Positions 6,531 to 25,239 of a stretch of DNA of 64,000 nucleotides are shown here, piece after piece (within the stretch, counting starts at the first letter, position 1; every line of letters starts with the position of its first letter). Both the position numbers and the translations under genes were made by a program. Source of the DNA: Siphonodentalium dalli (lineage: Eukaryota > Mollusca > Scaphopoda > Gadilida > Siphonodentaliidae); assembly GCA_032622095.1 (NCBI GenBank), contig CP136063.1, positions 91,427,980-91,491,979 on the forward strand. Reading direction: 5' to 3'. The notes beneath the pieces were generated by a model. The model made no database searches and was not told the DNA's origin. It was given only the letters and a program-made list of their open reading frames with translations.

Positions 6531-7763
6531 AATTCAGTATGGCTACGACTTAGTGATCTCGCTTATAGGAAGCAACCTTTTGTTATATGTTGTAATGAAC
6601 GCAATCGTGAATTGACACACCCCGGGGTCTTTCAAAAACATGGTGAAAACCCTCTGGTATTTTATCAGGGTGATTGGAACAGGTAATTTTACTCTGGTAA
6701 ATTTCACCTATAGTGAATGGTCACCATATAAAACGCACACAGTGTATGTAGACCAACCCATGTATTTTTACTTTAGTAAAATGTTCCCACCCATATATTT
6801 CACAGTTCACCAAGGTATTTTACCGGGCTGTAAGTATGTATGTGGTGGTTCTACTAAAGTAATTTTCCCAGAATAATTCTACCAGGTAATTTACCTCGAC
6901 ATTAGGGTAAATTTATCACGGTATTACCGAGGTACGCTTTCAGAAGCTTTAAAGGCACGGGCAGTGTTCTTTGCAGAAATAGTCATATTTGTTCAAATCG
7001 CCATCAACGGAAGGAATATTAAAATATATATAGTTTTGTTCATATGCCAAACATAATCAGCGCGTAAATAGTATATTGTCGTCAAGACGTACGATGGTGT
7101 ACGTAAACAAGAACATTCTCGTGTCACAAAACCTTTGCTTCTATACATAACACAGCGCAATTCTAATGGTTAATCGCACACAAATGATACACCGCTCTTT
7201 ATTATTTCCATATCAGGAAAACAGTAACAAATAACGCTCTTTATGTGTACCATATCCGGATCTAAACAAAAGCCAGGTTCTGTAACGTTTTTTTTGCTTT
7301 TGTTTACATAACAAAGGAAAAAAACATTTGACAATAACATACTGTTTATGCCATATTTCTGATTGGTATAAAAACAAAGTCTGTCTATGTTTTACTATTC
7401 TTTTTGTTTATGGCGGTTTTTGACGGAGCTGAATATTTTAACAGCATGCCCACCGCCAACACCGCCCGTATCTTTAACATTTGAGACAACAGATTGGAGG
7501 CTGTTTGAATCACACATGTTATAACATAAGGTGTTAAACTCTTTTTGACTTGGCTGACTTATTTCAAAAATATATTCTTGCCCCATTCTCAATCGTCACC
7601 CTCGTCGAATCGGCTGACCTATTTTTACATTCCGAGGAATCGACGGAAAGTACCGAGGATTCCGATTGGCCCCATTCTGTTAAATGTTTCGTATGACACC
7701 GGGTACATCGCCGTCATCGTCATCGGCATCAGATCATGCATAGTATTTATGCTAATCAGGCGA

Positions 7764-7806
7764 ACACCTTATCTGGCAAACGTTTGAGTTGGGTAGGCTT
7801 TATAAG
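7764..7806 (+). promoter_or_regulatory. Type-3 Pol III promoter (PSE + TATA) of tRNA-Sec copy 1
   Basis: ACACCTTATCTGGCAAACG at 7764-7782 sits at -66 relative to the tRNA start and resembles the animal snRNA/tRNA-Sec proximal sequence element. TTTATAAG at 7799-7806 sits at -31 to -24, the canonical Pol III TATA position for this gene class. The block is repeated unchanged ahead of the other eight intact copies. A TATGCTAATC stretch about 80 bp upstream could be an octamer-like distal element, but this is uncertain. Confidence 0.8.
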
Positions 7807-7829
7807 CACAGTGTGGGTGTTGGTTTATC

Positions 7830-7916
7830 GCCCGAATGACCCTCGGTGGTCCGGGGTGCAGGCTTCAAACCTGTAGCCGATTAGCGTCGGAGTGGTTCAA
7901 TTCCACCTTTCGGGCG
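7830..7916 (+). tRNA. Selenocysteine tRNA (anticodon TCA), copy 1 (A1)
   Basis: The gene decodes UGA as selenocysteine and is charged by SerRS, then PSTK and SepSecS. It is 87 nt long, the size of animal tRNA-Sec. It starts GCCCGAA, pairing with TTCGGGC, has discriminator G, anticodon loop CTTCAAA and T-arm GTGGTTCAATTCCAC. The long variable arm pairs CCGA with TCGG. Against the human gene as I recall it, the differences fall mainly in stems and are mostly paired changes (D-stem A-U to G-C; variable-arm CUGU/ACAG to CCGA/TCGG). TATA is at -31 and PSE at -66. The terminator T6 is at 7924-7929. CCA is not encoded. Confidence 0.97.
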
Positions 7917-9431
7917 TATCAACTTTTTTAAATGACCCTTAATGGAAGTTGGAATCACAAACAAAGATGTGTTTGCGCGAATGCTAATTTGGAAACAAAA
8001 CATAGACACGTATATGTGCGGACTAAATTTATACAATGCAGACCTATACACAGAAATTAAAGATATTCAGGTGAACTTTCTGTTTGTTTACAAGCTGACT
8101 ATTTAAACAAATAAACTCCACATAACCTATATAATTATAGTTTGTACAGACAACATCCAATATTCATGCACTGTCACTAACAATCTAAGAAGAATAACTC
8201 AAAATCAATACTAACATCACACTGACGTCACTGATTCGCGAATGTACCTATGTATTTGTGTACTTGTGTATATATAGATAATTTTAGGTGTGTGCTATTA
8301 AAATAAGATAGCGGAAGAATGACAAGTGCAGGTTATATCGTCACGTCCTTAAAGGTACTCAATCCGATCAGACGGTCCCCATACCATCAATATGCAACAA
8401 GTTTCAACAACAACAACAACAACAACAACAATTTTTTTCTCAAAAATACGCGTTAGTTTTCAGAATCGATTTATTGCAACAAAATAATGATAACCACTGT
8501 CAACTATGGTATAAAATTTCCAAAAACTTGTTATTCATCAACATTTTTTTCAACAAAATATGGCCGTATTATCACTAAAGTATCATGAAATTTGACCGTA
8601 TTACCACTTGGTTTTAGAGTTATTAAAATATATATAGTTTTGTTCATATGCCAAACATAATCAGCGCGTAAATAGTATATTGTCGTCAAGACGTACGATG
8701 GTGTACGTAAACAAGAACATTCTCGTGTCACAAAACCTTTGCTTCTATACATAACACAGCGCAATTCTAATGGTTAATCGCACACAAATGATACACCGCT
8801 CTTTATTATTTCCATATCAGGAAAACAGTAACAAATAACGCTCTTTATGTGTACCATATCCGGATCTAAACAAAAGCCAGGTTCTGTAACGTTTTTTTTG
8901 CTTTTGTTTACATAACAAAGGAAAAACATTTGACAATAACATACTGTTTATGCCATATTTCTGATTGGTATAAAAACAAAGTCTGTCTATGTTTTACTAT
9001 TCTTTTTGTTTATGGCGGTTTTTGACGGAGCTGAATATTTTAACAGCATGCCCACCGCCAACACCGCCCGTATCTTTAACATTTGAGACAACAGATTGGA
9101 GGCTGTTTGAATCACACATGTTATAACATAAGGTGTTAAACTCTTTTTGACTTGGCTGACTTATTTCAAAAATATATTCTTGCCCCATTCTCAATCGTCA
9201 CCCTCGTCGAATCGGCTGACCTATTTTTACATTCCGAGGAATCGACGGAAAGTACCGAGGATTCCGATTGGCCCCATTCTGTTAAATGTTTCGTATGACA
9301 CCGGGTACATCGCCGTCATCGTCATCGGCATCAGATTATGCATAGTATTTATGCTAATCAGGCGAACACCTTATCTGGCAAACGTTTGAGTTGGGTAGGC
9401 TTTATAAGCACAGTGTGGGTGTTGGTTTATC

Positions 9432-22559: not shown

Positions 22560-23055
22560 TATCAACATTTTTAAATGACCCGATAACGTTAATGGAAGTT
22601 GGAACCACAAACAAAGATGTGTTTGCGCGAATGCTAATTTGGAAACAAAGCATAGACACGTATATGTGCGGACTAAATTTATACAATGCAGACCTATACA
22701 CAGAAATTAAAGATATTCAGGTGAACTTTCTGTTTGTTTACAAGCTGACTATTTAAACAAATAAACTCCACATAACCTATATAATTATAGTTTGTACAGA
22801 CAACATCCAATATTCATGCACTGTCACTAACAATCTAAGAAGAATAACTCAAAATCAATACTAACATCACACTGACGTCACTGCTTCGCGAATGTACCTG
22901 TGTATTTGTGTACTTGTGTATATATAGATAATTTTAGGTGTGTGCTATTAAAATAAGATAGCGGAAGAATGACAAGTGCAGGTTATATCGTCACGTCCTT
23001 AAAGGTACTCAATCCGATCAGACGGTCCCCATACCATCAATATGCAACAAGTTTC

Positions 23056-23089
<34 letters not shown>

Positions 23090-24089
23090 TTTTTTTTTCA
23101 AAAATACGCGTTAGTTTTCAGAATCGATTTATTGCAACAAAATAATGATAACCACTGTCAACTATGGTATAAAATTTCCCAAAACTTGTTATTCATCAAC
23201 ATTTTTTTCAACAAAATATGGCCGTATTATCACTAAAGTATCATGAAATTTGACCGTATTACCACTTGGTTTTAGAGTTATTAAAATATATATAGTTTTG
23301 TTCATATGCCAAACATAATCAGCGCGTAAATAGTATATTGTCGTCAAGACGTACGATGGTGTACGTAAACAAGAACATTCTCGGGTCACAAAACCTTTGC
23401 TTCTATACATAACACAGCGCAATTCTAATGGTTAATCGCACACAAATGATACACCGCTCTTTATTATTTCCATATCAGGAAAACAGTAACAAATAACGCT
23501 CTTTATGTGTACCATATCCGGATCTAAACAAAAGCCAGGTTCTGTAACGTTTTTTTTGCTTTTGTTTACATAACAAAGGAAAAACATTTGACAATAACAT
23601 ACTGTTTATGCCATATTTCTGATTGGTATAAAAACAAAGTCTGTCTATGTTTTACTATTCTTTTTGTTTATGGCGGTTTTTGACGGAGCTGAATATTTTA
23701 ACAGCATGCCCACCGCCAACACCGCCCGTATCTTTAACATTTGAGACAACAGATTGGAGGCTGTTTGAATCACACATGTTATAACATAAGGTGTTAAACT
23801 CTTTTTGACGTGGCTGACTTATTTCAAAAATATATTCTTGCCCCATTCTCAATCGTCACCCTCGTCGAATCGGCTGACCTATTTTTACATTCCGAGGAAT
23901 CGACGGAAAGTACCGAGGATTCCGATTGGCCCCATTCTGTTAAATGTTTCGTATGACACCGGGTACATCGCCGTCATCGTCATCGGCATCAGATTATGCA
24001 TAGTATTTATGCTAATCAGGCGAACACCTTATCTGGCAAACTTTTGAGTTGGGTAGGCTTTATAAGCACAGTGTGTGTGTGTGTTTATC

Positions 24090-24441
24090 GTCTGAATGAC
24101 CCTCGGTGGTCCGGTGTGCAGGCTTCAAACCTGTAGCCGATTAGTGTAAACATATTTTTATTTCCAAATCCAAACATAATACACATAATACACAAATGAC
24201 ATAAATATACAACATATAAGAGATAATGTATGGAAATGAGGATCAGACAACAAGCCCGAGAGTGAGAAAGTAGAGGGGACAGAGTTTTCAATAATTTATT
24301 TGCTGCGTGATGAAAATTATGCTCGTAGTAATATGCATGCGTCAGGCTTCACGGGAGGGGGTCAATCGCAATGGCCAATTCCTGTTTCATTTCAATGGGG
24401 TTCGATTAGCGTCGGAGTGGTTCAATTCCACCTTTCGGGCG
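24090..24441 (+). pseudogene. tRNA-Sec pseudogene split by an insertion (A4)
   Basis: The 5' part (24090-24144) begins GTCTGAA instead of GCCCGAA, which breaks acceptor pairing, and has GGTGTG instead of GGGGTG in the D-arm. The anticodon arm survives. The gene is interrupted in the variable arm and resumes at CGATTAGCGTCGG (24403), running to CGGGCG at 24441. CGATTAG is present on both sides of the interruption. The PSE is also altered (AAACTTTT for AAACGTTT) and the -20 region has expanded to a GTGTGT run. It is almost certainly non-functional. Confidence 0.93.
24145..24402 (-). mobile_element. 258-bp insertion in the tRNA-Sec pseudogene, 7-bp flanking repeats
   Basis: The insert is flanked by CGATTAG at 24138-24144 and 24403-24409, consistent with a 7-bp target-site duplication. 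No terminal inverted repeats are visible. Read on the minus strand it ends in an A-rich tail (GGAAATAAAAATATG...), as a 5'-truncated retroposon would. Family unknown. Confidence 0.65.
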
Positions 24442-25239
24442 TATTAACATTTTTAAATGACCCGATAACGTTAATGGAAGTTGGAACCACAAACAAAGAT
24501 GTGTTTGCGCGAATGCTAATTTGGAAACAAAACATAGACACGTATCTGTGCGGACTAAATTTATACAATGCAGACATATACACAGCAAATAAAGATATTC
24601 AGGTGAACTTTCTGTTTGTTTACAAGCTGACTTTTTAAACAAATAATCTCCACATAACCTATATAATTATATTGTGTGCAGCGCAACATCCAATATTCAT
24701 GCACTGTTACTGACAATCTAAGAAGAATAACTCAAAATCAATACTAACATCACACTGACGTCACTGATTCGCGAATGTACCTGTGTATTAATATTTTGTG
24801 TACTTGTGTATGTATAGATAATTTTTAGGTGTGTGCTATTAAAATAAGATAGCGGAAGAATGACAAGTGCATGTTATGCATATATCGTCACGTCCTTAAA
24901 GGTACTCAATCCGATCAGACGGTCCCCATACCATCAATATCTTCAACTTTTTATTCAATCTTTTAATATTTTACATTTTATAAGACTGCAACAAGTTCCA
25001 ACAAGTTCCAACAACAAGTTCCAACAACAACAACAACAACAACAACATTTCTTCAAAATATGCTTTAGTTTTCAGAATCGATTTATTGCAACAAAATAAT
25101 GCTAGTTACCACTGTCAACTATGGTATAAAATTTCCCAAAACTTGTTATTCATCAACATTTTTTTCAAACAAAATATGGCCGTATTATCACAAAAGTATC
25201 ATGAAATTTGACCGTATTACCACTTGGTTTTAGAGTTAT

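Follow-up and report, generated by a model that had tools for sequence, protein, structure and literature searches.

Evidence for an expanded selenocysteine tRNA gene family, including a young tandem array, in the scaphopod Siphonodentalium dalli

The stretch of the Siphonodentalium dalli genome analysed here (GenBank assembly GCA_032622095.1, contig CP136063.1, positions 91,427,980 to 91,491,979 of the forward strand; 64 kb in all, hereafter the window, in which positions are counted from the first base) carries nine genes for selenocysteine (Sec) tRNA, tRNA-Sec(TCA), all on the + strand, which were found by ARAGORN and, in agreement, by the Rfam family RF01852, where each of the nine scores 79.3 bits against a gathering score of 47 (Table 1). 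One 87-nt sequence is common to all nine copies, as are the 90 nt upstream, and in the RF01852 alignment it adopts a nine-base-pair acceptor stem (with one non-standard pair) and a long variable arm. The core of the proximal sequence element (PSE), ACACC, lies at -66 and TTTATA at -31 in every copy, and the terminator is a run of six T (copies 1, 4 and 7) or five (the other six). The initial annotation had proposed nine identical 87-nt copies with a PSE at -66, a TATA box at -31 and T5/T6 terminators, set between 7017 and 25239 together with one broken copy, and these claims are borne out: monomer homology starts at 7017 and stops at 25239, and a tenth gene, at the 3' edge of the array, is split by a 255-bp insertion. 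This copy 10 retains nt 5-58 (24094-24147) and nt 49-87 (24403-24441) on either side of the insertion, which is flanked by a 10-nt near-duplication; it has additional point changes and is a predicted pseudogene, while its upstream region is alike to that of copy 1 at 145 of 150 bases.

The gene spacings of about 1.6, 2.2 and 1.6 kb recur along the array, revealing a period-three higher-order repeat composed of three near-identical 5.4-kb blocks with three tRNA-Sec genes each. Four substitutions separate block 1 from block 2, and again from block 3, and there are none between blocks 2 and 3; the remaining differences are short gaps, mainly in the lengths of CAA and A runs, plus the alignment ends (blocks 2 and 3 differ in a single CAA unit and a terminal alignment gap). 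Divergence between monomers is 0.50-0.81% within a block and 0.88% for the widest pair among all nine, whereas monomers 2, 5 and 8 are identical over 2204 bp, as are 4 and 7 over 1599 bp, and 6 and 9 show no substitution in 1614 aligned bases. Identity of the nine genes might be taken as proof of selection, but we rejected this argument because the monomer alignment has only 16 gap-free variable columns, of which few would be expected by chance within 87 nt. The near-identity of the blocks indicates that identity within the array shows youth, not selection.

In each of the three blocks the middle monomer carries, at one and the same position, a 600-bp element resembling a miniature inverted-repeat transposable element (MITE). 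Its 587-bp core gave 40 scored genome matches (of 1938 candidates), every one at 100% and three of them the array's own, which argues for a recent element and a still more recent block duplication. A further pair of this element's TTAA-flanked inverted termini, with a mismatch in one end, is present at window 62244-62882. Dispersed sequence is also found in the spacer: in a 631-bp query from it, the first ~370 bases are a repeat that, among the 40 candidates scored of 3657, is 91-93% alike at the 30 lying outside the window. At the edge of the array (window 6949-7477) a 540-bp stretch is 86% alike to one near a further tRNA-Sec cluster at 209.35 Mb, and is probably the same dispersed repeat.

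Table 1. Features of the tRNA-Sec array, in window positions
Feature	Position	Strand	Basis
Higher-order block 1, three monomers	7017..12439	+	sequence comparison
Copy 1 putative type-3 RNA polymerase III promoter, ACACC -66 to TTTATA -31 (copies 2-9: same positions)	7764..7804	+	
tRNA-Sec copy 1 (block 1), T6 terminator	7830..7916	+	ARAGORN, Rfam
tRNA-Sec copy 2 (block 1), T5	9432..9518	+	ARAGORN, Rfam
MITE-like element (TTAA-ended, inverted termini), block 1, middle monomer	9712..10311		sequence
tRNA-Sec copy 3 (block 1), T5	11636..11722	+	ARAGORN, Rfam
Higher-order block 2	12440..17856	+	sequence comparison
tRNA-Sec copy 4 (block 2), T6	13253..13339	+	ARAGORN, Rfam
tRNA-Sec copy 5 (block 2), T5	14852..14938	+	ARAGORN, Rfam
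MITE-like element, block 2	15132..15731		sequence
tRNA-Sec copy 6 (block 2), T5	17056..17142	+	ARAGORN, Rfam
Higher-order block 3, 0 substitutions vs block 2	17857..23274	+	sequence comparison
tRNA-Sec copy 7 (block 3), T6	18670..18756	+	ARAGORN, Rfam
tRNA-Sec copy 8 (block 3), T5	20269..20355	+	ARAGORN, Rfam
MITE-like element, block 3	20549..21148		sequence
tRNA-Sec copy 9 (block 3), T5	22473..22559	+	ARAGORN, Rfam
Older tenth monomer with broken tRNA-Sec	23277..25239	+	start estimated from the copy 1 offset
tRNA-Sec copy 10, predicted pseudogene	24094..24441	+	DNA search, sequence comparison

The whole assembly (2.227 Gb in 9 contigs) was searched with RF01852, 53 of 106,728 first-look candidates being scored, and 14 tRNA-Sec loci exceed the gathering score, all on the contig that carries the window (C3). 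Outside the window there are a tandem trio on the minus strand at 209.35 Mb and single genes at 210.16 Mb and 221.24 Mb, the last with two substitutions, and all five have the UCA anticodon of the window copies. A DNA search returned 17 matches, namely 13 at 100%, one at 98%, the two pieces of copy 10 and one 32-nt remnant. The remnant is an exact tRNA-Sec 3' end at C3:210165676-210165707, 9 kb from the 210.16-Mb gene. On contig C8, 38 matches at 46.2 bits were set aside as below the gathering score; the nine of these that were read coincide with tRNA-Ser(GCT) in a tandemly repeated seven-tRNA unit considered below. The 14 loci fall into two lineages, A (the window array) and B (the other five), separated by ~118 Mb or more. 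Their upstream 150 nt are 50-52% identical in gapped alignment, near what unrelated DNA can give, and their gene bodies are almost invariant: relative to lineage A there are no differences in 87 positions for B1 and B4 and two for B5, B2 and B3 also matching at 100%, so the body is identical in 13 of the 14 loci. When 100-nt flanks are counted, nine of the 14 are distinct (four from the window array and all five of lineage B), and with 800-nt flanks this rises to 11. It is very likely, judging from these sequences, that S. dalli has an expanded tRNA-Sec family whose 14 loci, of two promoter lineages, share a single chromosome-sized contig.

The promoters of ordinary tRNA genes are internal. 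Upstream of the tRNA-Sec genes ACACC, a motif with a frequency of 0.0013 per base in the window, is positioned at -66 in 14/14 loci, accompanied by a TATA-like box that is TTTATA at -31 throughout lineage A (9/9) and a weaker GATAAA at -29 throughout lineage B (5/5). The last gene base (position 87, G73) is G in all 14 loci and is followed by a run of four to six T; G73 has been called essential for tRNA-Sec (PMC5330540). In the same genome ACACC is likewise at -66 in 12/12 U6 loci with four distinct upstream sequences, and at -58 or -59 in 24/24 U1 and U5 loci, which indicates a polymerase-specific offset (the loci read were the top 12 of 48, 42 and 46 scored matches for U6, U1 and U5, respectively). 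Because the tRNA bodies have been kept at an upstream identity of ~50%, and because the PSE occupies the U6 position, both lineages look functional, in keeping with the initial annotation's description of the copies as apparently functional. The retention of the body despite diverged upstream sequence is the best evidence that lineages A and B are constrained. Some observations nonetheless weigh against the view of 14 functional loci. The absence of substitutions between blocks 2 and 3 makes over-counting by the assembly possible there, gene conversion could account for the identity of A and B bodies (there are 23 matches in the 30 nt directly upstream), and the lineage B elements are the weaker ones, with GATAAA in place of TTTATA and a first T run of only four.

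Tandem arrangement extends to other small-RNA genes of this genome. Scored matches include tandem runs of U6 with spacings of ~1.36 kb and 1.83 kb (among at least 48 matches), of U1 with ~2.15 kb (among at least 42) and of U5 with ~3.9 and 5.1 kb (among at least 46), and at C8:163.27-163.37 Mb a seven-gene tRNA unit of 1.7 kb (one Arg, three Ser, two Thr and one Leu) is repeated in tandem. These resemble the tRNA-Sec array in their kilobase spacing, and involve other kinds of gene. U6atac, on the other hand, has one weak copy and three strong scattered ones, with 0.3 and 1.4 Mb between neighbours, while SEPSECS is one multi-exon gene (C2:201.47-201.48 Mb) with a stray exon match at C2:121694434-121694556. 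Small-RNA arrays are thus common in this genome, not universal.

The initial annotation had suggested that the copies are a dosage adaptation to a Sec-rich selenoprotein P (SelP), and the premise of this idea holds in S. dalli. One SelP locus was detected, on the minus strand of contig C9 at ~191.601-191.610 Mb, with three matches to PF04592 above cut-off within 8 kb. Its last open stretch of 453 codons has 37 UGA and neither TAA nor TAG; 36 of these UGAs lie from codon 198 on, and glutamine directly follows 24 of the 37. Read in its two remaining frames, the stretch has 7 and 23 TGA, along with TAA and TAG codons. The N-terminal SelP_N match contains UGLC, a UxxC motif, and hence one more in-frame UGA, bringing the total to 38 as the sum of two stretches of genomic DNA. 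A candidate selenocysteine insertion sequence (SECIS) element lies on the sense strand ~3.7 kb downstream, scoring 19.5 bits with SECIS_1, short of the gathering score, 35 (E = 3.4 with all 4227 families searched, which would correspond to roughly 0.001 for one family). In its fold ATGA and TGA flank a ten-pair stem, and the apical loop bears AAA. No second SECIS candidate was seen downstream of SelP, and the 19.5-bit one is absent from the listing of a wider Rfam search; two custom scans, of 6 kb and of 4 kb on the downstream side, found none, with filters that we judge too strict, the Rfam candidate lying inside the scanned stretch. SelP of molluscs is reportedly rich in Sec (Baclaocos et al. 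2019). Like such proteins the S. dalli SelP has dozens of UGAs, here 38, in a genome whose tRNA-Sec family is expanded. For SelP in oysters 46 Sec residues, and for one bivalve 132, are given in a review (PMC8230778). A search for molluscan haemocyanin returned nothing, a negative that does not amount to absence of the gene.

Apart from the array, the window holds two adjoining stretches matching the transposase family DDE_Tnp_1_7 on the - strand (51964-53580), in one frame with a stop between them. Large tandem arrays with units of ~155-164 bp span 40166-45896, a 20-bp unit repeated ~44 times (78% matches) occupies 2271-3183, and a perfect GA repeat of 53.5 copies lies at 146-252.

A single functional copy is the general assumption for tRNA-Sec, according to the Secmarker survey (Santesmasses et al. 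2017, PMC5330540), which also finds no correlation between the number of tRNA-Sec genes and that of selenoproteins; selenoproteins are counted there as genes, not as UGAs per mRNA. Its Table 3 lists four tRNA-Sec genes in the lancelet and four in the common house spider, two identical zebrafish genes are mentioned, and for a diatom 11 non-identical predictions are described, nine without disruptive change, the Table 3 count being four (PMC5330540). The table covers the best copy and copies with compensatory changes only, copies identical together with their 100-bp flanks are discarded, and predictions without disruptive change form a separate class of 69 in 46 genomes (PMC5330540). The S. dalli copies, which have identical bodies except for one with two changes, would belong to that class, so the Table 3 counts are not like-for-like with ours. 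As in the multi-copy genomes presented in the survey, there are several G73 tRNA-Sec genes in one genome. Unlike them, S. dalli has 14 loci, nine of them non-identical when 100-nt flanks are included, and nine loci lie in one array of three-gene blocks. Among gastropods, the genome papers on Biomphalaria pfeifferi (PMC10075465) and B. sudanica (PMC10875847) give a single tRNA-Sec in each of these species and none found in B. glabrata; there too the genes were found by genome annotation, with one copy each as against 14 here. No comparable animal tRNA-Sec array appears among the listed titles and abstract openings of open-licence papers bearing on tRNA-Sec or SelP, which is weak evidence of novelty.

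Lineage A most likely grew by unequal exchange, initially of 1.6-kb monomers and then, after the MITE-like element had entered the middle monomer, of the three-monomer block. On one explanation copy number has drifted neutrally, unequal crossing over having arrayed many small-RNA genes in this genome with tRNA-Sec among them, and to this we give about an even chance. The tandem runs of U6, U1, U5 and the seven-tRNA unit count in its favour, and the expansion is recent (monomer types differ by 0.5-0.9%, blocks by 0-4 substitutions) and has a broken tenth copy left at its edge. It fits less well with U6atac, which is not arrayed, and with the second expanded cluster, in which the body is retained amid diverged flanks. 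An apparent array might alternatively be inflated by false duplication or unmerged haplotypes in the assembly. Several monomers are indeed without any difference (2, 5 and 8; 4 and 7) or without substitution (6 and 9), and according to the Secmarker authors copies that match through their 100-bp flanks suggest artefacts of assembly (PMC5330540). This is nevertheless improbable, as the 100-nt flanks distinguish four types of window copy and five lineage B loci, four substitutions set block 1 apart from blocks 2 and 3, and lineage B lies ~118 Mb away or more.

Selection for dosage, in which copies are kept since the supply of Sec-tRNA limits processive decoding of the Sec-rich SelP, is in our view possible but rather doubtful. 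Each gene has its own PSE/TATA promoter for RNA polymerase III and a T-run terminator, so that more copies would provide more tRNA-Sec templates, and their product would feed Sec decoding, including that of a SelP mRNA with ~38 UGAs. The single detected SelP locus with 37 + 1 in-frame UGAs and a sub-threshold SECIS candidate is consistent with such a demand, as is the presence of tRNA-Sec in two separate clusters, and the three strong scattered U6atac copies and one SEPSECS gene indicate that amplification is not universal. The adaptive link drawn by the initial annotation is, however, a hypothesis that meets several objections: the array is very young, U6, U1, U5 and the seven-tRNA unit are arrayed as well, and the survey cited above found no correlation between numbers of tRNA-Sec and of selenoproteins. 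Drift by unequal exchange therefore appears the likelier of the two.

A tentative possibility, which we hold with reserve, is that two clusters, their promoters diverged, have raised the tRNA-Sec gene dose so as to sustain processive decoding of a ~38-UGA SelP, copy number being tuned to a recoded codon. The coexistence of 14 tRNA-Sec loci and a 38-UGA SelP in one genome makes it testable, across relatives of S. dalli, whether the supply of Sec-tRNA limits Sec decoding. The array is in addition a clear case of the recent block-wise expansion of genes with upstream RNA polymerase III promoters.

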